Of a DNA stretch of 64,000 bases, positions 25,513-38,416 are shown one piece after another (the first letter of the stretch is position 1; each line of letters starts with the position of its first letter). A program made the position numbers and the translations under genes. The notes under the pieces were generated by a model, which ran no database searches, was not told where the DNA came from, and worked only from the letters and a program-made list of their open reading frames with translations. Where the stretch lies: the NCBI RefSeq assembly GCF_024464185.1, contig NZ_JANHAU010000003.1:62001-126000 (forward strand), given 5' to 3'. The DNA is from Haloarchaeobius salinus (GTDB taxonomy: Archaea; Halobacteriota; Halobacteria; Halobacteriales; Natrialbaceae).

Positions 25513-26379
25513 ATGCAAGGTGGACTACTGGTACAGGTCGCCGGGCAGCTAGAGCCCGACGGGAACCGGGCCGAGGTGTTCGGTACGATCTTCGAGGTGT
25601 TCCTGATCCTCGGCACCGTGGTCGGTGTCGTCGTTATCGGGTACATGCTGTACAACGCGTACAAGTACCGTGACGACGGGACCGCTCCCGCCGAGGAGAC
25701 GGTCGAGCGGCCCACCCTCGGGGAGCTCCCGGAGGGTGGCGGGCACGGGCGGAAGCTGCTGCTCTCGTTCACGCTCAGCGCCGTCATCGTCATCTCGCTC
25801 ATCCTCTGGACGTACTGGGCGCTGCTGTACGTCGAGGCGGGGGCGGCACAGCCGGCCGAACCCGAGATGGAGGACGGGACGACGGTGGACGTCACGGGCT
25901 ACCAGTTCGGCTGGGAGTTCGAGTACCCCAACGGCAACACCAGCGAGGGGACGATGTACGTGCCCGAGGGTGAGCGCGTCCGCATCGTGGTGACGTCCTC
26001 GGACGTGATGCACAACTTCGGGGTTCCGGCGTTCAAGACCAAGACCGACGCCATCCCCGGCCAGACGACGAGCACCTGGTTCGGCCCGGTCGAGGACGGT
26101 ACGTACACCATCAAGTGCTACGAGCTCTGCGGGGCCGGCCACTCCTACATGACCGGGACGGTGGAGGTCATCGACGCCGACGAGTACGACCGGATGTTCG
26201 AGGAACCGATGAACAGCACGAACTCGAGCAACAGCACGCAGGCTGACGGTGACGCTCGGATCGCGGCCGGTGGCGCACCGGGGACCGACAGTCCGTCCAT
26301 CGCAACCCCGACTGACGGCGCGCCGGCGGTACGACCGGCCGCCCGCCCCGCGGCCACGAGGGGTGTTCTCAGGGCATGA
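25513..26379 (+). CDS. coxB: Cytochrome c oxidase subunit II (CuA)
   Basis: The 288-residue subunit II has two membrane helices (about 24-50 and 83-110) followed by an extracellular cupredoxin domain. CuA ligands are visible: His167 (MHNFGVPA), Cys202 and Cys206 with Glu204 (CYELCGAGH), His210 and Met213. It takes electrons from a copper protein or cytochrome and passes them to subunit I. The last 60 residues are a disordered Asn/Ser/Pro/Ala tail. The stop overlaps the subunit I start (26376-26379), so the operon is translationally coupled. Confidence 0.96.
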   Translation: MQGGLLVQVAGQLEPDGNRAEVFGTIFEVFLILGTVVGVVVIGYMLYNAYKYRDDGTAPAEETVERPTLGELPEGGGHGRKLLLSFTLSAVIVISLILWTYWALLYVEAGAAQPAEPEMEDGTTVDVTGYQFGWEFEYPNGNTSEGTMYVPEGERVRIVVTSSDVMHNFGVPAFKTKTDAIPGQTTSTWFGPVEDGTYTIKCYELCGAGHSYMTGTVEVIDADEYDRMFEEPMNSTNSSNSTQADGDARIAAGGAPGTDSPSIATPTDGAPAVRPAARPAATRGVLRA

Positions 26380-28985
26380 CCGACGACGACCACGGGACGA
26401 CGACGGACGGTACCGGCGACGAACCAGTGAACGACGGCGGCACGGCCAGTGACGGGGGACTCGTCGATGACGACCGGTTCCCCACCGGCGGGGTCCCCGA
26501 CACCTCCCACGAGGACGACGACGAGCACGGGCTCCCACCGACGTACTCCATCCGGCGCTGGTTCGTCACGACCAACCACAAGGACATCGGGCTGCTGTAC
26601 ACGGTGACGGCACTGTTCTTCCTCATCTTCGGCGGCCTGCTCGCGCTCCTGATGCGCCTCGAGCTGTGGGCCCCCGGTGCGAACGTCATGTCGGCCGGTT
26701 CGTACAACCAGGCCGTCTCCGCACACGGGCTCATCATGGTGTTCTGGTTCCTCTCGCCGCTGGCGTTCGGCTTCGCGAACTACATCGTCCCGCTGCAGAT
26801 CGGCGCGAAGGACCTCGCGTTCCCGCGGCTGAACGCGCTCTCGTACTGGCTCTACCTGTTCTCGGGCATCCTCATGGGCATCTCCTTCTTCCAGGGGAGC
26901 ACGTTCAACGGCGGCTGGACGATGTACGCGCCGCTGAACATGCCCGTCTACACGCCGGAGATCGGCGGGACGACGACGGTACTGGCGTTGATACTGTTCG
27001 TCGCCTCCGCGACGGTCGGCTCCGTCAACTTCCTGACCACGATGCATCGCATGCGTGCGGAGGGGATGACCCTCCGTCGGATGCCCATCTTCACGTGGAG
27101 CATCCTGCTGACGGTGTGGATGATGCTCTTTGCGTTCGCAGCGCTGCTGGCCGCGCTGATGCTGCTCAGCTCCGACCGGCTCATCGGGACGGGCTACTTC
27201 GCGGAGAGCAGTCCCGGCGGGGCGATGCTGTGGGCGCACCTGTTCTGGTTCTTCGGCCACCCCGAGGTGTACATCGTCTTCTTCCCCGCCCTCGGCGCGA
27301 TGGCGGAGATATTCCAGACGTTCACGGGTCGCCGTCTCGTCGGCCGGAAGTGGTTCATCGGGGCGATGCTGCTCGTCGCCATTCAGAGCTTCGTCGTCTG
27401 GATGCACCACATGTTCCTGACGAGCATCAACCTCGAGATCAAGACGCTGTTCATGGCGACGACCATCGGAATATCACTACCCTTCGACCTGATGGTGTTC
27501 TCGCTGATCTACACCATGTTGAAGGGGAAGATACGGTTCAAGACGCCGTTCCTCTTCGGCTTCGGCGCGCTGGTGCTGTTCATCCTCGGGGGCATCACGG
27601 GTGTCTTCCTCGGCGCGGTCGTGCTCGACTACACGCTCCGGGGCACCTACTGGGTCGTCGCGCACTTCCACTACGTCATGGTCGGCGGCGTGACCGGGCT
27701 CGTGGGGGGTCTCTACTACTGGTTCCCGAAGATGACCGGCAGGATGTACGACGAGACGCTCGGGAAGGTCCACTTCGGGATGTACTTCGTCGGGTTCAAC
27801 CTGCTCTACTTCCCGATGTTCATCGCCTGGGAGACCCCGCGGCGCGTGTTCGAGTACGCGCCCGCGCTCACCGGCATGCACCAGCTCTCGACGGTCGGGG
27901 CGTTCCTGCTCGGCTCGTCGTTCCTGGTGATGTTCTACAACCTGTTCAAGAGCGCCTTCGTCGGCGAGGAGGTGGAGGGCCAGCCCTGGGACTTCGCCTC
28001 CACGGCCGAGTGGACGGTGCCGTCGCCGCCGCCGCTCGAGAACTTCCCCGGCGTCCCGACGTACGCGAGCGGCCGCCTGGAGTTCGAGGACGGCGGCTCC
28101 GCACAGACCGACGGGGGTGCTGTCCACGGCAAGGCCGCGGCGCTCCCCGGTAGCGAGGCGACCGAGACCGACCACGAGGGCGGCGAGAGCCACGCGAGCA
28201 TCTGGCCGTTCGTCCTCGGTCTCGGCGGCTTCCTGGTCCTGCTCGGGCTCTCCGGACTCCAGCGTGGCTACTTCCCCGACGGGACGATGGGCGGGCTGTA
28301 CATCGGAACGGCCGTCGTCGGGGGGATCGTCGCGTTCGGCAGCCTCGTGGCGATGACCCGCGAGAAGTTCCACGGTCCCGAGGGGCCGTTCGGCGAGAGC
28401 TGGCCGTTCACGAGCGTCGAGAACACGAAGCTGGGGCTGTGGATCTTCCTCGCCTCCGACGTCATCCTGTTCGGCGCGTTCATCGGCGCGTACGTGTTCT
28501 CCCGGGTGGCGTACGGCTGGACCGACTGGCACCACCTCATCCCCGAGGCACACGTGGTGTTGCCCGGGCTCATCAACACCTACCTGCTGTTGACGAGCTC
28601 GTTCGCGGTCGTCATCGCGATGGAGTTCGCCGAACGGGAGAACCGCCTCGGCGTCGTCGGCTCGCTGCTGGCGACGGTCGGCCTGGGGGTCGGCTTCCTC
28701 ATCAACAAGGGGATCGAGTGGCAGCACCTGTTCCACATCTCCACCGACGCGTTCCCGGCCGGCTGGGACCCAGCGACGAACATCGCGTCGACGACGTTCT
28801 ACGTCACGACCGGCCTGCACGCCCTGCACGTCATCGTCGGCCTCGTCATCGCCGGCTACATGATCTTCAGAGCGTGGGGTGGGGCCTACATGGGCGACGA
28901 CGAGCCCATCGAGTACTTCGGGCTGTACTGGCACTTCGTCGACATCGTCTGGCTGTTCCTGTTCCCGCTGTTCTACATCGTGTGA
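26376..28985 (+). CDS. coxAC: Cytochrome c oxidase subunits I and III fusion
   Basis: The 869-residue protein joins subunit I (about 50-560) and subunit III (about 600-869), an arrangement I know from other haloarchaea. Heme and CuB ligands are visible: AHGLIMVFWF (low-spin heme His), FFGHPEVYIVFFP (CuB His and the cross-linked Tyr), WMHHMF and VAHFHYVMVGG. The subunit III part has ENTKLGLWIFLASDV and ends YWHFVDIVWLFLFPL. A hydrophilic linker of about 40 residues connects the two. The enzyme reduces oxygen to water and pumps protons. The N-terminal 45 residues are acidic and unstructured. Confidence 0.97.
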   Translation: MTDDDHGTTTDGTGDEPVNDGGTASDGGLVDDDRFPTGGVPDTSHEDDDEHGLPPTYSIRRWFVTTNHKDIGLLYTVTALFFLIFGGLLALLMRLELWAPGANVMSAGSYNQAVSAHGLIMVFWFLSPLAFGFANYIVPLQIGAKDLAFPRLNALSYWLYLFSGILMGISFFQGSTFNGGWTMYAPLNMPVYTPEIGGTTTVLALILFVASATVGSVNFLTTMHRMRAEGMTLRRMPIFTWSILLTVWMMLFAFAALLAALMLLSSDRLIGTGYFAESSPGGAMLWAHLFWFFGHPEVYIVFFPALGAMAEIFQTFTGRRLVGRKWFIGAMLLVAIQSFVVWMHHMFLTSINLEIKTLFMATTIGISLPFDLMVFSLIYTMLKGKIRFKTPFLFGFGALVLFILGGITGVFLGAVVLDYTLRGTYWVVAHFHYVMVGGVTGLVGGLYYWFPKMTGRMYDETLGKVHFGMYFVGFNLLYFPMFIAWETPRRVFEYAPALTGMHQLSTVGAFLLGSSFLVMFYNLFKSAFVGEEVEGQPWDFASTAEWTVPSPPPLENFPGVPTYASGRLEFEDGGSAQTDGGAVHGKAAALPGSEATETDHEGGESHASIWPFVLGLGGFLVLLGLSGLQRGYFPDGTMGGLYIGTAVVGGIVAFGSLVAMTREKFHGPEGPFGESWPFTSVENTKLGLWIFLASDVILFGAFIGAYVFSRVAYGWTDWHHLIPEAHVVLPGLINTYLLLTSSFAVVIAMEFAERENRLGVVGSLLATVGLGVGFLINKGIEWQHLFHISTDAFPAGWDPATNIASTTFYVTTGLHALHVIVGLVIAGYMIFRAWGGAYMGDDEPIEYFGLYWHFVDIVWLFLFPLFYIV

Positions 28986-28990
28986 TACCC

Positions 28991-29260
28991 ATGTCCAGAG
29001 CAAAACTCTACACCGTGATATACGTCGTTCTGTTCGTGCTGGCGACCGTCCAGGTCGTCGTCGAGCAGGCCGGCTACCTGGAGGAATCGTACTGGATGGC
29101 GTTCTGGGCCATCATGGTCCTGTCGGCGCTGAAGGCGGTCGTCGTCGCGGGCTGGTACCAGCACCTGCGCTGGGAGCCCCGCTCGGTGACGACGCTGATG
29201 CTGCTCGGCCTGCTCGGGGCGGTCGCGCTGACCGTCGCCGCGTCGTACTCCATCCTGTGA
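28991..29260 (+). CDS. Cytochrome oxidase subunit IV-like small membrane protein
   Basis: The 89-residue protein has three helices (about 5-22, 31-50 and 62-86), six bases after coxAC. Length, position and the YWMAFWAIMVLSALKAVVVA helix match the small prokaryotic subunit IV that stabilises the oxidase. It contains no cofactor ligands. Confidence 0.82.
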   Translation: MSRAKLYTVIYVVLFVLATVQVVVEQAGYLEESYWMAFWAIMVLSALKAVVVAGWYQHLRWEPRSVTTLMLLGLLGAVALTVAASYSIL

Positions 29261-29347: not shown

Positions 29348-29875
29348 ATGCAGATCCGCGTCGCCACCGAGGCCGACGTCCAGGCGATCAGAACCGTCCA
29401 CGAGGCGTCCATCCGCGGCCTCGGGTCGGAGACGTACGACGTCGAGCAGGTCGACGCGTGGGCGGCGGGCGTCGAGTCGGCCGACTACGCCGCCGTCTCG
29501 CACGACGGGTTCTACTACACCGTCGCGGAGATCGAGACGGGGGCTGTCGACGGTCAGTCCGTCGTCGGATTCGGTACCCTCGCGTGGTGCGAGCCCGACG
29601 GCTACCAGGCCGACGTGGACGCCGAGGTGACCGCGGTGTACGTCCACCCGGACGTGGCCCGCGACGGCGTCGGTACGGCGCTCCTCGTGGACCTCGAACG
29701 GCAGGGCCGTTCCGAGGGCTTCCGAAGCCTCGGCCTCACCGCCTCCACGAACGCCGTACCGTTCTACGAGGCCCACGGCTACGTGCGGGTGCGAGAGCGG
29801 ACACACGAGTTCTCCGTCCGTGAGGGGACGGGTGTCGAGGGAACCGTCGTCGAGATGCGGAAGGGGCTCGACTAG
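29348..29875 (+). CDS. GNAT-family N-acetyltransferase
   Basis: The 175-residue GNAT has a first strand-helix MQIRVATEADVQAIRTVHE, the acetyl-CoA motif VHPDVARDGVGTALL (about 98-112) and TASTNAVPFYEAHGY near the end. The acceptor is unknown; GNATs acetylate proteins, amines or small molecules. It lies between the cox operon and the convergent membrane operon, whose last stop it overlaps by four bases (29872-29875). Confidence 0.88.
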   Translation: MQIRVATEADVQAIRTVHEASIRGLGSETYDVEQVDAWAAGVESADYAAVSHDGFYYTVAEIETGAVDGQSVVGFGTLAWCEPDGYQADVDAEVTAVYVHPDVARDGVGTALLVDLERQGRSEGFRSLGLTASTNAVPFYEAHGYVRVRERTHEFSVREGTGVEGTVVEMRKGLD

Positions 29876-31011
29876 CGGGCGCAGGTCGCCCGGACCGTCG
29901 ACGCGAGCGTCACCGCACTCGCGGTCAGTAGTCCGATCGCGGCGACGAGGAAGAGCGTCGCGAGCGGCGACTCGGGGTCGGTGAACGCCCAGTACAGTGG
30001 ACTCGCCGACGCCCCCAGGGCCGCGCTGGCGATGCCGTACAGTGCGGGACCACAGCAGCAACACGCCGTCGCGCCGGTCGTCGCGAGCGCGCCGGTGACG
30101 CCCGTGACGGTCCCGCCGTCGGCCGCGGCCGTGCGGTCAGGGCTCGCAGCGTCCTGCGTCCGCCAGACCGTCGTGCCGAGCGCGGCGTTGATGCCGACCA
30201 GCCCGGCGAGCAGGCCGAGGGTGATGCCGGTGCCGACCGAGAGCGCGGCGAACATCGGGACTGCCGGCCGGTACATCTCGATGGCCGGCCACGAGACGAG
30301 CGGGCTGACGAACGTCGTCACCACAGTGAAGGGCTCCCCGCCGGCCTGCGGCACCGGGTCGGGGTTGAACGTTGCGAGCCCGGACGAGAACGCGAAGAAG
30401 CCGGCGAACCCGACGGCTGCGAGCGCACCCACGAGCCGCCCTCGGGTGCCGACGCGGGCGAGCGCGGGCCGGAGCTCCGTCCAGTAGACGTAGCCGAGCA
30501 ACGCCGGCACCGCGAGCACGAGCAGGTAGCCGAGCGGGTGGCGCGAAGCGTCGCCCGGCAGCAGCGCGGGGTAGGCCACCCAGAAACCGAGGACGGAGCC
30601 CAGCACCGGGTAGGCGTGGCGGTCGCCCCACCGGAGCTGGTAGGCGACGACGCTGCCGAGCGCGATGGCCATCCCGCCGAACACCGTCAGGACCGGGTAG
30701 AACTGGCGTGGCAGCGGCGTCGTCGACAGCGGCTCGACCTGCACCTCGACGAGTCCGACCGTCGCGAGCGCGGAGAGGGAGACGCCGGCCACGAGCAGCC
30801 CTGCGCTCGTGCGTGGGTCGGGTCGCTGCCCGGTCCGGTCGAGCCACGCGACCGTGCCGAGGAGCGCGACCCCGACGAACAGCGTTCCCAGCAGCAGCAG
30901 ATGGGGCGTGCCGCCGTGGACCGTGCCCTCGTGGGCGCTCGCGGTCGGCACGAGCGTCGTGCTCGCGAGTGCGACCAGCACCGTCTGCAGGCCTCGGCGG
31001 CGACGGCTCAC
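29872..31011 (-). CDS. Polytopic membrane protein with predicted mature N-terminal His and a Cys4 helix
   Basis: Last gene of a five-gene minus-strand operon facing the cox genes. The 379-residue protein starts with a Sec signal ending ASA (24-26), then His27 in HEGTVHGGTPH. If cut there, the mature chain would begin with His, the arrangement of copper-binding histidine braces. About nine membrane helices follow, and near residues 316-319 the run TACCCCGPALYG opens a terminal helical hairpin. No family name is recognised. Copper handling for the adjacent oxidase is an inference from the His terminus, the Cys run and the location. Its start overlaps the upstream stop by four bases. Confidence 0.75.
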   Translation of the reverse strand: MSRRRRGLQTVLVALASTTLVPTASAHEGTVHGGTPHLLLLGTLFVGVALLGTVAWLDRTGQRPDPRTSAGLLVAGVSLSALATVGLVEVQVEPLSTTPLPRQFYPVLTVFGGMAIALGSVVAYQLRWGDRHAYPVLGSVLGFWVAYPALLPGDASRHPLGYLLVLAVPALLGYVYWTELRPALARVGTRGRLVGALAAVGFAGFFAFSSGLATFNPDPVPQAGGEPFTVVTTFVSPLVSWPAIEMYRPAVPMFAALSVGTGITLGLLAGLVGINAALGTTVWRTQDAASPDRTAAADGGTVTGVTGALATTGATACCCCGPALYGIASAALGASASPLYWAFTDPESPLATLFLVAAIGLLTASAVTLASTVRATCAR

Positions 31012-31364
31012 AGGCTCAACACCACCATGTAGACGAGGACGAGCACGGCGTAGAGGCTGGCGAGCCCCGCGATGACCTTCAGGTGGTAGACGAACAGCTC
31101 GTCGGTCTCGGCCTCGATGGCGTCCTCGTAGCGTCCGCGTTCGGCGTCGGTCAGATCACCGGCGTGGACCTCGCCGAGGTGGAGGTCGTGGTGCGTCGTC
31201 GTCGGGAACGGCCGGCCGCATCGGTCACAGGTCGCCGCCGGCTCCTCGCCGGCGGGAACGTCGTACGTGGGCGGGTCGTGGCCCGGACGGTCGGCCTTCG
31301 ACGACTGCGGGGGCTCCTCGGTCGCGGGCGTGCCGTCGGTCGGGTGGTCGTGTGTCGTGGTCAT
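31008..31364 (-). CDS. C2H2 zinc-finger protein with C-terminal membrane helix
   Basis: The 118-residue protein has an acidic, disordered N-terminal half followed by a C2H2 finger, Cys46-x2-Cys49-x12-His62-x4-His67 (CDRCGRPFPTTTHHDLHLGEVH region), and a single C-terminal membrane helix (about 92-116). The finger would face the cytoplasm. It sits between two polytopic membrane proteins with four-base overlaps at both ends, so it probably works with them. Role unknown; a metal-responsive or assembly adaptor is conceivable. Confidence 0.75.
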   Translation of the reverse strand: MTTTHDHPTDGTPATEEPPQSSKADRPGHDPPTYDVPAGEEPAATCDRCGRPFPTTTHHDLHLGEVHAGDLTDAERGRYEDAIEAETDELFVYHLKVIAGLASLYAVLVLVYMVVLSL

Positions 31365-32734
31365 ACTGGTGGGGCGACGTAGGGCTGGCCGAGCAGCCAC
31401 ATGCTGGTCATCGTGTAGAACACCATCACGAGGGCGAACGGGTACTGGCTGCGGATGGGCTGGAGCCGGCCGGTGAACGTCTCGAAGGCGATGGAGTGGG
31501 CGACCCAGATGGCGAGCAGGTGCCCGAGCACGACGAACGCCAGCCCCAGCGAGCCGAACCAGTCCGGCAGCACGGCGACGGGGACGTTCTGTGGCGGCGT
31601 GAACGGGTCCAGCGCGAGCACCTCGAGGGTCGGGACGAAGGTGAGGAAGTAGCCGAGGAAGTGCGCGAGGTGGTAGCCCGCCGCGATGGGCACCAGCGAA
31701 CCGACGAACCGGCGCTCGACCGTGCCCGCGCTGACGTAGCTCTCGGCGGTCCGACGACCGACACGTGCCGCGAACCGGTAGACGCCGAGGAACAGCGCAT
31801 AGCCCGCGACGATGCCAGCGACGTACACCGCGAGTGCGGGGACGCCGACGTCCACGAACCACCGGGCCGTCCCGGCGAACGCCGGCGTGGACACCAGGCC
31901 GTCGAACGAGGTCGCCCAGACGAGCGCGACGACGAACCGCACGTCGGCCCCCGTCGCGCCGTCGGCGTCGTGGACGAGCCGCGAGCCCGGGAGTTCGACC
32001 GTGAACCCGTCCGCTGTCCGGCGGAACGGTGCGAGCCGGCCGTAGACGCTGAAGACGCGCGAGATGGGGTCGACGGACTCGTACCACTCCTCGCCGAAGA
32101 CGGCCGCGCCAGCGAGGGTGACGGCGGTGTAGGCGAGGACGACCGTCGCGAGCAGGACCGGGTCGGAGGCGACCGGGGTGACGACCTCCAGCCAGACCAT
32201 CCCGAGCAGGCCGGCGGTCGCGGGCCAGTTCCGGGCCGACGCGGGCAGCTCGCGCTCGCTCACGCGCGGGAGGACGGCACTGATGGCTCGCCACGGGTTG
32301 ACGGCCGGCCAGCTGTTCCCGAGCAGGTACACCGACGCGGTGTAGCCGGCCCACCAGGCCGCCCAGACGCCGACGATGGCGAGGTTCCGCCGGGGGTCGG
32401 CCGGCGCGAGGAACGCCACGGCGAGCAGGAGGACGAGTGCGACGACGCTTGCCACGCCCGCCACGCGGCCGAGCCATCGCGAGAGCGACGCGGCAGACGG
32501 GAGCCCGAGTCGCCGGTCGTTCAGCCACGCGATGAACTCGTGATCGGTCGCGAAGCTCGTGAACAGGAACGACGCGCCGACGAGCCCCCCTCCGGAGACG
32601 GCGACGAGCCAGGACGGCACCGACGTCGAGGTGAGCGAGCCCGCGAGCGAGCCGGAGTGTGCGAGCACCGGCTCGGCGAGCAGGCTCGCGGCGAGGACGG
32701 CGACGAGCGCGCGCCCGGCGTCACGTCGACGCAC
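31361..32734 (-). CDS. Large polytopic membrane protein with predicted mature N-terminal His
   Basis: The 457-residue protein has a signal peptide ending VLA (23-25) and His26 directly after (HSGSLAGS), then about ten helices. Paired histidines lie in late helices (YHLAHFLGYFL and GHLLAIWVAHSIAFE), and no cysteine is present. GTG at 32732-32734 is the start, overlapping the preceding gene by 14 bases. Related multi-pass proteins in bacteria sometimes carry the label fenitrothion hydrolase (from memory), which says little about function. Intramembrane His pairs suggest metal or heme binding; that is inference. Confidence 0.72.
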   Translation of the reverse strand: MRRRDAGRALVAVLAASLLAEPVLAHSGSLAGSLTSTSVPSWLVAVSGGGLVGASFLFTSFATDHEFIAWLNDRRLGLPSAASLSRWLGRVAGVASVVALVLLLAVAFLAPADPRRNLAIVGVWAAWWAGYTASVYLLGNSWPAVNPWRAISAVLPRVSERELPASARNWPATAGLLGMVWLEVVTPVASDPVLLATVVLAYTAVTLAGAAVFGEEWYESVDPISRVFSVYGRLAPFRRTADGFTVELPGSRLVHDADGATGADVRFVVALVWATSFDGLVSTPAFAGTARWFVDVGVPALAVYVAGIVAGYALFLGVYRFAARVGRRTAESYVSAGTVERRFVGSLVPIAAGYHLAHFLGYFLTFVPTLEVLALDPFTPPQNVPVAVLPDWFGSLGLAFVVLGHLLAIWVAHSIAFETFTGRLQPIRSQYPFALVMVFYTMTSMWLLGQPYVAPPV

Positions 32735-33817: not shown

Positions 33818-34023
33818 GGTATGTGGTCACAATAATCAGGCATCGCATTTAACGTTGCCGTCCGGAACAGCACGGGACCGACACCGGGCGTCCACCCGGA
33901 GGCGACACCGGACACTGGACCATGAGACCGATTCACTTACTCGGAAATGAATTAATTTGGGGAACTATTAAGTAGGGCCTTGCGCAAAGAATGGGTACGT
34001 CTCCCATAGAGACACGTGGTGGC

Positions 34024-35325
34024 ATGACAGGACACGATTCGGACTCCGGCGTTTCGCGACGTAGCGTACTCAAGACAACCGGTGCTGCAGGTGCGGCAGG
34101 CATGGCCGGCCTCTCCGGCTGCCTCAGCGGGCTGACGGGCGGCGACAGCCCCGAGCCCCTCGAACTGCTCCACGCGTGGAGCGGGGGCGACGGTGCGGCG
34201 GCCATCGAGGCCCTGTTCGAGGGCTTCCAGGAGCAGCACCCGGACATCGAGCTCACCAGCGAGGGGATCGAGGGCGCGGCGACCCAGAACCTCGGACAGG
34301 TGATCAACGAACGCATCCGTAACGACAACCCGCCGGCGACCTGGCAGAACTGGCCGGGGCAGGCGCTCACCCCGTTCGTCGAGGCGGACGCACTCGGCGA
34401 CATCACCGACTCCGTCTGGAGCGAGAACGAGATGGAGTCGGCCTACCGCGAGGGCCCGAAGGAGCAGGCGAAGGGCGGCACGGACAACTACGTCTCGGTG
34501 CCCATCAACATCCACCGCATCAACAACCTGTTCTACAACACGAGCGTCGTCGAGGAGGCGGGCGTCGACCCGACCAGCCTCTCCTCGCCGTCGGACGTGG
34601 TCGACGCGTGTGCGACCATCGCGTCCGAGACCGACGCGGTCCCCTTCGCGCACCAGACGAACGGTCTCTGGTCGACGGCCCAGCTCTGGGCGACCGTGCT
34701 GCTGGCCGACTCCGGACACGGCGCGTACCAGAGCTTCTACGAGGGCAACCCGGACCGCGAGGCCGTCGTCTCCGCGCTCGAGATCGTCGCCGACCTCAGC
34801 GAGTACTACCCCGACGACGCATCCAGCATCGCGTTCACCGACGCCAACAACATGGTGATGAACGGCGAGGCCGCCTTCATCCACCAGGGTGACTGGGCCG
34901 CCGGCGCGTACCGCAACACCGACGGCTTCGAGTACGGCGAGCACTGGAGCTACGTGCCGTTCCCCGGGAGCGAGCACAGCTACCAGCTGAACATGGACGC
35001 GTTCCCGTACCCGTCCGACAACCCGACGCCGGACGAGACGCAGACGTTCCTCCAGTACTGTGGCAGCAAGGACGCCCAGATCCGGTTCAACCGCGCCAAG
35101 GGCTCCATCCCGCCGCGTGGTGACGTCGACCCCTCGGAGTTCCCGCAGTTCCAGCAGGACCAGATCGAGGACTTCGGCAACGTCGACCACCAGCCGCCGT
35201 CCATCCATCACGGCCTCGCACTGCCCCCGGCGACCAAGACCAGTGTCGACGAGGCCATCGGGGCGTTCATCGGCAACTACGACGTCGAGACGGCCGCCGA
35301 CGAGCTCGTCTCCGCGGTCCAGTAA
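34024..35325 (+). CDS. Sugar ABC transporter substrate-binding lipoprotein
   Basis: The 433-residue extracellular binding protein has a Tat signal SRRSVLKTTGAAG (residues 11-23), then the lipobox LSGC, so it is exported folded and held by a lipid anchor. The body is a family 1 solute-binding protein (LELLHAWSGGDGAAAIEAL, then NINRINNLFYNTS-like hinge and WAAGAYRNTDGF). The ATG at 34024 puts the twin arginines at residues 12-13; ATG 33991 is an alternative. First gene of a complete importer with two permeases and an ATPase. The sugar is not identifiable from sequence. Confidence 0.93.
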   Translation: MTGHDSDSGVSRRSVLKTTGAAGAAGMAGLSGCLSGLTGGDSPEPLELLHAWSGGDGAAAIEALFEGFQEQHPDIELTSEGIEGAATQNLGQVINERIRNDNPPATWQNWPGQALTPFVEADALGDITDSVWSENEMESAYREGPKEQAKGGTDNYVSVPINIHRINNLFYNTSVVEEAGVDPTSLSSPSDVVDACATIASETDAVPFAHQTNGLWSTAQLWATVLLADSGHGAYQSFYEGNPDREAVVSALEIVADLSEYYPDDASSIAFTDANNMVMNGEAAFIHQGDWAAGAYRNTDGFEYGEHWSYVPFPGSEHSYQLNMDAFPYPSDNPTPDETQTFLQYCGSKDAQIRFNRAKGSIPPRGDVDPSEFPQFQQDQIEDFGNVDHQPPSIHHGLALPPATKTSVDEAIGAFIGNYDVETAADELVSAVQ

Positions 35326-35339
35326 GCCGAGCATCTCCC

Positions 35340-36350
35340 ATGGACGCAATACGTTCGTGGTTGCGCAGACGACGCTCCAACGACGGCTCGGAGCGGGAGC
35401 TCCGGACCGACGGCGGTGCCACGGGGGCACCCGAGCGCGAGGAGGGGCTCGTCGCACGCTACCGCCGGAGCGACGCCGTCCGGTCGGCCCCGTTCTGGCT
35501 GCCGGCGTTCCTGCTCGTCGGTCTGTTCGTCTACGGTGCGATCTTCTGGAACATCCTCATCTCGCTGACGGACTACTCCGGACTCGGCGACCCGGAGTAC
35601 GGGAGCTTCGACCTCGACAACTACGGTCGGCTGCTCTCCGAGACCGGCTCGTACTCGTTCACCAACGCGTTCGTGAACACGGTCATCCTGTTGATCGCGT
35701 TCACCCTCATCTGTCTGGCGTTCGGGCTGGTCGTCGCCATCCTGGTCGACCGCGACATCCGATACGAGAACACGTTCCGGACGATCTACCTCCTGCCGAT
35801 GAGCCTCTCGTTCGTCGTGACGGCGAAGATGTGGCTCTGGATGTTCAGCTCCGACGGGGGGCTCGTCAACGTCCTCCTCGGTGTCGTCGGCATCGGTCCC
35901 ATCGACTTCATCCGGAACCCCGACCCGAACGTCCAGCTCGCGGCGGTGACGTTCGCGCTCATCTGGCAGTTCAGCGGCTACGCCATGGTCGTCTACCTCG
36001 CCGGACTGCGCGCCATCCCCGACGAGCACTTCGAGGCCGCCCGCGTCGACGGCGCGAGCCTCGTCCGGATGTACTGGCGGGTCATCATCCCCCAGCTCCG
36101 GACCGCGACCGTGAGCGCCTCGGTCGTCCTGATGGTGTTCGCGCTGAAGGCGTTCGACTTCCTGCGCGCGCTGTACGGGAGTAGCACGCCGTCGGTCGGG
36201 ACCGACATCCTCGCGACGAAGATGGTCCGCGTGGCGTTCGACAACAACCAGGTCGCGTACGGCTCGGCCATCGCGGTCGTGCTGTTCGTCATGGCGTTCT
36301 CCATCGTCACGCCGTACCTGTACAGCGAGTACCGGCGGGGGGCACTATGA
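35340..36350 (+). CDS. Sugar ABC transporter permease 1 (MalF-like)
   Basis: The 336-residue permease has an Arg-rich cytoplasmic start, six helices and the EAA loop EAARVDGASLVRMYWRVIIPQL (near 236-257) that docks on the ATPase. Belongs to the carbohydrate uptake 1 class. It follows the binding protein by 14 bp, and its stop overlaps the second permease (36347-36350). Confidence 0.94.
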   Translation: MDAIRSWLRRRRSNDGSERELRTDGGATGAPEREEGLVARYRRSDAVRSAPFWLPAFLLVGLFVYGAIFWNILISLTDYSGLGDPEYGSFDLDNYGRLLSETGSYSFTNAFVNTVILLIAFTLICLAFGLVVAILVDRDIRYENTFRTIYLLPMSLSFVVTAKMWLWMFSSDGGLVNVLLGVVGIGPIDFIRNPDPNVQLAAVTFALIWQFSGYAMVVYLAGLRAIPDEHFEAARVDGASLVRMYWRVIIPQLRTATVSASVVLMVFALKAFDFLRALYGSSTPSVGTDILATKMVRVAFDNNQVAYGSAIAVVLFVMAFSIVTPYLYSEYRRGAL

Positions 36351-37228
36351 GCGGGCCCGACCAGGGGTCGACGCTCAGCCGCGTCGGCCTCTACGTCGTG
36401 CTCGTCGGGCTGGTGCTGTTCTACCTCCTGCCGCTGGAGGCAGGCATCGTGACCTCGTTCAAGACGACCGGAGCGTACGGCTCGACGCAGCCGTTCCTGC
36501 CCGCGTTCGACGGGCTGACCCTGGAGAAGTGGACCGGCGCGTTCGACGAGCTGTCCGGCGGGCTGTTCAACAGCGTCATCATGGCGGTCCCGGCGACCGC
36601 GATGTCTGCGCTCATCGGCAGCATGGCGGCCTACGGGCTGACCAACGTCGACTGGCGCGGCCAGGTCGGCATCTACACCCTGTTCATCGCGGGCATCTTC
36701 GTCCCGTACCAGGCGGTGCTGGTGCCCCTGAAGCGGTTCTGGTCGCAGTGGGTCCCGCTCGACGTCTGGCTCGAACCGCTCTGGCTCCTGCCCGGACTGA
36801 CGAACGACCACGGCGGCCTGTTCGCGCTGATGATCACCCACGTCGCCTACGGCATCCCCATCTGTACGCTGCTGTTCCGGTCGTACTACAAGGCCGTCTC
36901 CGACGAGATGGTCGAGGCTGCCCGACTCGACGGGGCGAGCATCCGGCGCATCTACCGACGCATCATCCTGCCGCTGTCGGTGCCGATGTTCGCCGTCGCG
37001 CTCATCTACCAGTTCACGCAGATATGGAACGACCTGCTGTTCGCGCTCATCCTCATCGGAGGGTCGGGCGACGCGGCGGTCGTCACGCAGGAACTGGTCG
37101 GCGTCGGGCAGGCCCAGGAGGCGACCGACTTCCCGCTGCAGATGGCGGCGGCGTTCGTCACCGCCCTGCCGACGCTGCTGGTGTACATCTTCTTCGGCGA
37201 ACAGTTCGCGAAGGGAGTGACCGCATGA
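36347..37228 (+). CDS. Sugar ABC transporter permease 2 (MalG-like)
   Basis: The 293-residue permease has six helices and the EAA loop EAARLDGASIRRIYRRIILP (about 189-208). It pairs with the previous permease to form the membrane channel. A 16-codon frame starts inside its stop (37225) and bridges to the ATPase gene. Confidence 0.94.
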   Translation: MSGPDQGSTLSRVGLYVVLVGLVLFYLLPLEAGIVTSFKTTGAYGSTQPFLPAFDGLTLEKWTGAFDELSGGLFNSVIMAVPATAMSALIGSMAAYGLTNVDWRGQVGIYTLFIAGIFVPYQAVLVPLKRFWSQWVPLDVWLEPLWLLPGLTNDHGGLFALMITHVAYGIPICTLLFRSYYKAVSDEMVEAARLDGASIRRIYRRIILPLSVPMFAVALIYQFTQIWNDLLFALILIGGSGDAAVVTQELVGVGQAQEATDFPLQMAAAFVTALPTLLVYIFFGEQFAKGVTA

Positions 37229-37275
37229 CCATGAACGCTTACACATTCGGACGACGGAGGTACACGCATGGCTGA
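37225..37275 (+). CDS. Possible 16-residue coupling ORF between permease and ATPase
   Basis: ATG at 37225 overlaps the permease stop as ATGA. The frame encodes MTMNAYTFGRRRYTHG and ends at TGA 37273-37275, inside the first codons of the ATPase gene (ATG 37268). Ribosomes ending on the permease could continue through it to the ATPase start. Whether the peptide is made is unknown. Confidence 0.35.
   Translation: MTMNAYTFGRRRYTHG
37256..37260 (+). promoter_or_regulatory. Shine-Dalgarno sequence of the sugar ABC ATPase gene
   Basis: GGAGG lies seven bases before the ATG at 37268. Internal operon genes of haloarchaea often lack such a site, so this one decides the start and shows independent initiation for the ATPase. 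Confidence 0.6.
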
Positions 37276-38416
37276 ACTCGAACTCGACGGCATCACCAAG
37301 GTGTTCGTCGAGGACGACGGGAACGAGATCGTGGCCGTCGACGACGTCGACGTGACCGTCGGCGACGGCGAGTTCCTCGTCCTCGTCGGTCCCTCGGGCT
37401 GTGGCAAGTCGACGACGCTGCGGATGATCGCCGGCCTCGAGTCCATCACCTCGGGCGAACTGCGCCTCGCAGGTGAGCGCATCAACGAGCGCAAACCCGC
37501 CGACCGGAACACCGCGATGGTGTTCCAGTCGTACGCGCTCTACCCGCACATGACCGTCAAGCAGAACATGAGCTTCGGGCTGGAGGAGTCGACCGACATG
37601 CCCGACGACGAGATCGCGAAGACGGTCACCGAGGCCGCGGAGATGATGGGTATCGGCGACCTGCTCGACCGCAAACCCGGCGAGCTCTCCGGTGGTCAGC
37701 AACAGCGCGTCGCCCTCGGCCGCGCCATCGTCCGCGACCCCGAGGTGTTCCTGATGGACGAGCCGCTGTCGAACCTCGACGCGAAGCTGCGCTCGAAGAT
37801 GCGCACCGAGCTCCAGCGGCTGCAGGACGACCTCGGCGTGACGACCGTCTACGTCACGCACGACCAGACCGAGGCGATGACGATGGGCGACCGGATCGCC
37901 ATCCTCGACGACGGCGAGCTCCAGCAGGTCGGTACCCCGCTGGAGTGCTACCACCGGCCCGCGAACCGGTTCGTCGCGGACTTCATCGGCGAGCCGTCGA
38001 TGAACTTCTTCGACGTCGAGGTGCAGGGCGACCGCTTGCTGGCCGACGACTTCGCCTACCCGGTGTCGAGCGAGACGCTCTCGACGGTCGGCGACCGCAC
38101 CGAGCTGACCCTCGGCATCCGACCGGAGGATATCGAGCTCCGGACCGAGGCGACCGGCCCCCACGACTTCGAGACCGTCGTGGACGTCGTCGAGCCGACC
38201 GGCGACGAGAACAACCTCTACCTGACGTTCGACCCGGACGCGGCCGAGCCCGAGACGTTCATCGCCACGACCGGCGGCATGAACCGCATCGAGGCCGGCC
38301 AGCCCATCGTCGCCCACATCCCGGAGGACGCCATCCACCTGTTCGACGCGGACACCGGGCAGGCGGTGAAGAACCGGTCGTTGGACGACGCCGAGACGCT
38401 CGGCAAGCCGGTCTGA
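37268..38416 (+). CDS. Sugar ABC transporter ATP-binding protein (MalK/UgpC-like)
   Basis: The 382-residue ATPase has Walker A GPSGCGKST (about 40-48), Q loop VFQSYALYPHMTV, signature LSGGQQQRVALGRAIV, Walker B VFLMDEPLSNLDAKLR and switch His in VYVTHDQTEAMT. The last 140 residues form the TOBE/MalK regulatory domain. It powers the two permeases upstream. Such ATPases are sometimes shared by several sugar importers. Confidence 0.95.
   Translation: MAELELDGITKVFVEDDGNEIVAVDDVDVTVGDGEFLVLVGPSGCGKSTTLRMIAGLESITSGELRLAGERINERKPADRNTAMVFQSYALYPHMTVKQNMSFGLEESTDMPDDEIAKTVTEAAEMMGIGDLLDRKPGELSGGQQQRVALGRAIVRDPEVFLMDEPLSNLDAKLRSKMRTELQRLQDDLGVTTVYVTHDQTEAMTMGDRIAILDDGELQQVGTPLECYHRPANRFVADFIGEPSMNFFDVEVQGDRLLADDFAYPVSSETLSTVGDRTELTLGIRPEDIELRTEATGPHDFETVVDVVEPTGDENNLYLTFDPDAAEPETFIATTGGMNRIEAGQPIVAHIPEDAIHLFDADTGQAVKNRSLDDAETLGKPV

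Follow-up and report, generated by a model that had tools for sequence, protein, structure and literature searches.

The stretch of Haloarchaeobius salinus DNA analysed here (NCBI RefSeq assembly GCF_024464185.1, contig NZ_JANHAU010000003.1, positions 62,001 to 126,000 of the forward strand; its full 64,000 nucleotides are called the window) contains the heme-copper oxidase genes coxB-coxAC-coxIV and, on the minus strand, five genes in the order P5, DUF7546, P2, DUF7410, P1 (33817 to 29872). The ends of these five genes overlap or nearly touch, and from this layout they look like a single operon convergent with the oxidase genes (Table 1). A sequence-only reading of the window had noticed that two membrane proteins of this operon, P1 and P2, carry signals ending in ASA and VLA with a histidine directly behind, and had proposed that they form a dedicated copper-delivery or oxidase-assembly system with mature N-terminal histidines. 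The signals and the operon facing the oxidase genes are present as it described. Our comparison of homologous loci revealed that P2, together with its DUF7410 partner, and not P1, is the oxidase-linked protein of the operon.

Table 1. Features at the oxidase locus, in window coordinates.
Feature	Positions	Strand	Description	Evidence or remark
P2	31361..32734	-	457-residue multi-pass membrane protein, GTG start, signal 1-25, then His26; His358/His405/His413 invariant family-wide	No Pfam/NCBIfam match
P2 His26 codon	32657..32659	-	Predicted mature His1	His in 54/65 relatives, one loss
P3	31008..31364	-	118 residues, DUF7410 (C2H2-like) plus one C-terminal hydrophobic helix	Usual P2 neighbour
P1	29872..31011	-	379-residue multi-pass membrane protein, GTG start, signal 1-26, His27 the predicted mature N-terminus, C317/C319/C320 (CxCC) close to the C-terminus	No Pfam/NCBIfam match
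P1 His27 codon	30931..30933	-	Predicted mature His1	His in 42/42 homologues
P4	32721..33401	-	DUF7546 membrane protein, recurs at oxidase loci	Domain match and locus comparison
P5	33404..33817	-	137-residue membrane protein, first gene of the operon	
CoxB	25513..26379	+	Oxidase subunit II (CuA domain)	PF00116
CoxAC	26376..28985	+	Fused oxidase subunits I and III (heme a3-CuB)	PF00115 and PF00510
CoxIV	28991..29260	+	Prokaryotic oxidase subunit IV	PF03626
GNAT acetyltransferase	29348..29875	+	Between the cox genes and the P operon	

The linkage of P2 to oxidases is carried by its neighbourhood in other genomes. Genes for cox lie within 6 kb of P2 in 30 of 46 loci from named genomes, against 2 of the 38 P1 loci outside the genus that served as controls (Fisher p=5e-9), and in 15 of 20 further P2 loci from relatives. 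Across 116 haloarchaeal genomes, at least 36 of the 96 P2 copies fall within 8 kb of COX2, where about 0.75 would be expected. The DUF7410 gene sits no more than 0.5 kb from P2 in 35 of the 46 loci, and Marine Group IV archaea (L098, L100) have the gene order P2, DUF7410, CoxB, CoxAC, CoxIV, DUF7546. Copies of P2 linked to cox also occur in several Haloferax species. The closest named relatives of P2 are in Haloarchaeobius (85% identical), and many genomes hold a second P2, 26-32% identical to that of the window, directly downstream of a divergent CoxB/CoxAC pair. The association with oxidase genes that had been expected of both proteins thus extends, for P2 and DUF7410, through haloarchaea and Marine Group IV, and does not hold for P1. 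The proposed single two-protein system is not supported either: three of six congeners yielded no P1 although their loci retain cox, P2 and DUF7410, and the two proteins are not homologous. Both P1 as an oxidase-specific gene and a common P1 and P2 family were considered and rejected, the former on its cox neighbourhood and the latter on a profile comparison that returned a probability of 3%.

Several neighbours deserve separate mention. DUF7546 lies within 6 kb of P2 in 20 of the 46 loci, Marine Group IV included, and has a CxxC in a predicted helix. The H. salinus genome carries a second P2 paralogue (L161, C2:819097-820446; 47% identical, with AxA-His) directly downstream of a divergent CoxB/CoxAC pair and with DUF7546 divergent upstream. 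The GNAT gene is probably not part of the oxidase-linked system, and an operon for a sugar-type ATP-binding cassette transporter (binding protein, two permease-like proteins and ATPase; 33991-38416) that begins beside the P operon appears unrelated to it.

Both P1 and P2 have the classical n-h-c layout of a Sec signal with an AxA end followed by histidine, and on this layout both signals are predicted to be cleaved. P1 opens with MSRRRRGLQTVLVALASTTLVPTASA and continues, after the predicted cut before His27, with HEGTVHGG; P2 opens with MRRRDAGRALVAVLAASLLAEPVLA and continues, after the predicted cut before His26, with HSGSLAG. Ala26-His27 are the sole invariant residues ahead of position 47 in an alignment of 25 P1 homologues that are 34-89% identical to the window protein. 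Over all collected loci, histidine directly follows an AxA-type site in 42/42 distinct P1 proteins, as had been anticipated of orthologues, and the CxCC is present in 41/42. In P2, Ala25-His26 is invariant among 32 haloarchaeal and Marine Group IV sequences, and the Ala-His pair is also present in alphaproteobacterial and actinobacterial relatives. Over the whole family (haloarchaea, Marine Group IV archaea and bacteria) the position is His in 54 of 65 members and Ser in the other 11, so that the same expectation was borne out for P2 outside one clade. On a tree of these 65 members built without the His/Ser trait, the replacement of His by Ser is a single change (Shimodaira-Hasegawa-like approximate likelihood ratio test, SH-aLRT, 100), and because the Ser clade is nested within haloarchaeal His lineages, one loss is the simplest account. 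As background, histidine follows any AxA in 3/237 unrelated signal-like proteins from the collected loci, nearly all haloarchaeal, a set picked by a crude home-made signal rule that also catches ordinary membrane proteins. At the sequence level, these comparisons confirm that the AxA-His junction in P1 and P2 exceeds chance.

How far the histidine is a free N-terminus differs between the two families. Three P2 relatives, from M. chubuense, M. gallinarum and Rhodococcus WAY2, cannot be extended beyond their annotated start: read backwards in frame, a stop comes within 9-14 codons, with no ATG, GTG, TTG or CTG before it. These proteins must begin 9-11 residues ahead of the histidine, which makes a signal peptide impossible and leaves nothing to be cleaved. 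All three retain Ala-His. What is conserved across the P2 family is therefore this pair close to the N-terminus, and the histidine need not be the free N-terminal residue. No signal-less exceptions were seen among P1 homologues. In a histidine brace, copper is bound by the N-terminal amine, His1 and a second histidine. The mature N-terminal histidine that the brace proposed earlier would require is predicted for every P1 homologue and for most P2 members, and, judging from the Ser clade and the three actinobacterial reading frames, a strict N-terminal brace is not general across the P2 family. One could argue from the same exceptions, and from cleavage being only predicted, that the junction is incidental or the signal uncleaved and that the histidine has no metal role. 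We consider this highly improbable: no pair other than Ala-His is invariant over the first 46 residues of such divergent P1 homologues, bacteria and archaea share the pair in P2, and a histidine after AxA has few counterparts among unrelated signal-like proteins.

The linkage of P2 to copper enzymes is also found in bacteria. Genes for copper membrane monooxygenases adjoin the P2 relatives of M. chubuense NBB4, M. dioxanotrophicus and Rhodococcus WAY2, and that of M. gallinarum adjoins genes for CopC, heme-copper oxidase subunit III and a Caa3_CtaG protein. These neighbours bear on an alternative that casts P2 as a heme-handling factor for heme-copper oxidases, or as one of their accessory subunits. 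Its invariant intramembrane histidines would then bind heme and assist the insertion of heme a or b in subunit I, and the N-terminal histidine would be secondary. A heme insertion role has been proposed for Surf1. The three invariant histidines of P2 lie within two C-terminal helices, as such a role would suggest, and the oxidase linkage is equally consistent with it, as is a CtaA-like reading frame, recognised by eye, that adjoins P2 in one locus (L102 5805-6335). The actinobacterial relatives, however, adjoin copper monooxygenase and CopC/CtaG genes, and to our knowledge copper monooxygenases contain no heme; we regard a heme-handling P2 as unlikely. In actinobacteria, the start of the P2 relative overlaps a small lipoprotein-like gene that carries an HxH motif (L180 8555-8992, L181 8315-8731, L182 8570-8980, L183 7970-8461), and Pfam gave no match for the products of these small genes save a weak Cupredoxin_1 in Pseudonocardia. 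A supposed fenitrothion hydrolase annotation of the actinobacterial P2 relatives was not borne out; the plasmid records name them hypothetical protein, and the supposed annotation was not used.

In full-length numbering (alignment numbering plus 1), A25, P40, W142, P147, W217, H358, H405 and H413 are invariant throughout the P2 family, and His355 is too in the haloarchaeal set. The structure of P2 is predicted with confidence and is largely helical, with a predicted local distance difference test score (pLDDT) of 84.8 and a predicted template modelling score (pTM) of 0.85. Its fold has no significant match in the PDB (best E=0.011, template modelling scores, TM-scores, about 0.1) and none in a viral structure library. 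Searches of P1, P2 and their alignments against Pfam and NCBIfam returned no match, and neither family has a Pfam model; membership of either protein in CopC/CopD, CtaG, Cox11 or HupE was rejected on this ground. No convincing solved relatives of P1 or P2 were found by sequence, and a literature search for DUF7546, DUF7410, DUF7405 and DUF7350 found no papers.

Comparison with known copper systems places P2 nearest, in function, to the copper importer YcnJ of B. subtilis, in which His24 of the CopC domain supports oxidases under copper limitation and an outward Cu(II)-binding histidine (a histidine brace) in that domain is combined with a second, intramembrane histidine site (PMC13344008). P2 shares with YcnJ and CopCD the combination of outward (in P2, predicted) and intramembrane histidines in a membrane protein and the oxidase connection, whereas both P1 and P2 lack CopC, CopD and YtkA domains in Pfam and carry their histidine on a short segment directly ahead of the next helix. 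Caa3_CtaG (PF09678) has tentatively been regarded as a CuB factor (PMC9145763); it is likewise polytopic, has conserved histidines and is encoded with oxidase genes, a co-occurrence that P2 shares and P1 does not. P1, P2 and their relatives have no PF09678 match, whereas the M. gallinarum neighbour matches strongly; P2 also exceeds Caa3_CtaG in length and bears the Ala-His segment. Cox11 (CtaG_Cox11, PF04442) is a CuB copper chaperone of the outer face, but is a single-helix anchored domain with no similarity to P1 or P2; Sco1/SenC (PF02630) is an oxidase copper chaperone found in haloarchaea, but is a thioredoxin-fold CuA chaperone unrelated to either.

The distribution of these factors leaves room for another. 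The sequence-only reading had found no Sco or CtaG, which holds within the window; Sco is nevertheless encoded elsewhere in this genome (C5:38424, outside the window) and is present in 93 of the 116 haloarchaeal genomes. CtaG was found in 0/116 of them, with control genomes positive, and Cox11 also in 0/116, with the Caulobacter control positive, so that a vacancy exists for a CuB factor. P2 is present in 78 of the 116 genomes (not found in 38) and COX2 in 113, and none of the three COX2-less genomes is P2-positive. P2 could fill the CuB role in many, not all, haloarchaea.

The surroundings of P1 are of another kind. Among the P1 loci, DUF7405 is present in 14 (with a Dyp-type peroxidase annotation in L112), a lipoprotein with a P19-type PF10634 domain in 12, a heavy-metal ATPase in 8 and a multicopper oxidase in 5; merA/merB and a NosL protein are each nearby once, a divergent P2-like protein lies near P1 three times, and many P1 loci have no obvious metal gene. 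Halorussus halophilus P1 stands beside cox, as in the window. P1 is a parallel case from an unrelated family, with an invariant predicted mature N-terminal histidine and a CxCC, whose clusters are often, not always, metal-handling, and it is more likely a metal-transport-type membrane protein than an oxidase-specific factor. In loci L122-L139 (e.g. L126 6571-8920), P1 often lies beside a DUF7405 protein with a twin-arginine translocation (Tat) signal, a PF10634/DUF7350 lipoprotein, a DUF7471 membrane protein and an HVO_0163-type regulator; together these genes probably make up an uncharacterised metal-handling cluster of haloarchaea. In two loci (L124 11398, L145 10446), small proteins with a Tat signal are encoded close to P1, and their predicted cut also exposes histidine, after AAA or AA and at the start of HFPxxL. 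A single-sequence structure model of P1 was unusable (pLDDT 46), and a scan of viral contigs meant to deepen the P1 alignment yielded no homologues. The CxCC helix may resemble MerT/MerC, a likeness for which Pfam gives no support.

P1 and P2 might instead both be metal importers of the anglerase/HupE or YcnJ type, with an outward histidine that fishes Cu, Ni or Fe into the cytoplasm and an oxidase linkage that reflects copper demand. The layout is established: anglerases show that a mature N-terminal histidine can be joined to a permease, and Ang-1/Ang-2-HupE/UreJ proteins resemble P1 and P2 in bearing this histidine, after a signal, on a membrane permease (PMC12537917). In anglerases, however, a folded metal-binding domain precedes the permease, whereas P1 and P2 have only a short segment and no HupE/UreJ match. 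A His-rich segment in one large P1 subgroup, the nearly invariant CxCC and the P19-type, heavy-metal ATPase and multicopper oxidase neighbours are consistent with import by P1. Most P2 loci, however, lie in or beside oxidase operons and not transporter operons, and neither protein has detectable similarity to known permeases. Import by both proteins is, in our judgement, rather unlikely.

The reading that we favour, and to which we give about an even chance, is that P2, with its usual DUF7410 partner, is a membrane copper-handling factor for copper enzymes and that P1 is a separate metal-handling membrane protein. Copper handling best explains P2 because it accounts for a conserved histidine in the N-terminal region, intramembrane histidines and a genetic association with copper enzymes in both archaea and bacteria, and we infer from this combination that P2 may bind copper and take part in oxidase assembly. 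Its targets would be extracytoplasmic or intramembrane copper enzymes: in archaea the heme-copper oxidases, and in actinobacteria both copper monooxygenases and oxidases. The copper might be inserted into CuB, supplied to CuA or imported. The N-terminal histidine, at the start of a predicted outward-facing segment, may capture copper outside and hand it to the intramembrane histidines, which could help to load the target, possibly CuB in haloarchaea that have neither CtaG nor Cox11. In haloarchaeal P2 this histidine would be the mature N-terminus if the signal is cleaved, and in some actinobacteria it would act as a side-chain ligand instead. Several observations weigh against this reading. 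No cox gene lies within 6 kb of P2 in 16 of the 46 loci, and the genome counts for P2 and COX2 imply that many haloarchaea have oxidases without P2. The 11 members of the Ser clade lack the histidine, yet several are still cox-linked, and the first modelled residues of P2, around His26, are poorly ordered and unreliable. The P2 relatives of Neorhizobium, Sagittula and Variovorax lie in catabolic regions (nicotinate and tannase-GMC among the bacterial cases) with no annotated copper gene nearby; the link between P2 and copper enzymes is therefore strong, not universal.

A bolder form of this proposal, which we advance tentatively and consider rather improbable as a whole, would give P2 the role that is missing for haloarchaeal heme-copper oxidases, that of an assembly factor for CuB or for copper in general. 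P2 would then be an ancient cross-domain protein of new fold that also serves actinobacterial copper membrane monooxygenases. A review of bacterial systems expects further, as yet unidentified, assembly proteins (PMC9145763). The presence of the Ala-His junction in two unrelated membrane families, P1 and P2, is itself part of what this locus offers. If P2 does also serve the actinobacterial monooxygenases, two copper enzymes that differ greatly would have a maturation factor in common. For the delivery of copper to CuB in organisms without CtaG or Cox11, P2 provides a concrete, genetically accessible candidate with named residues.

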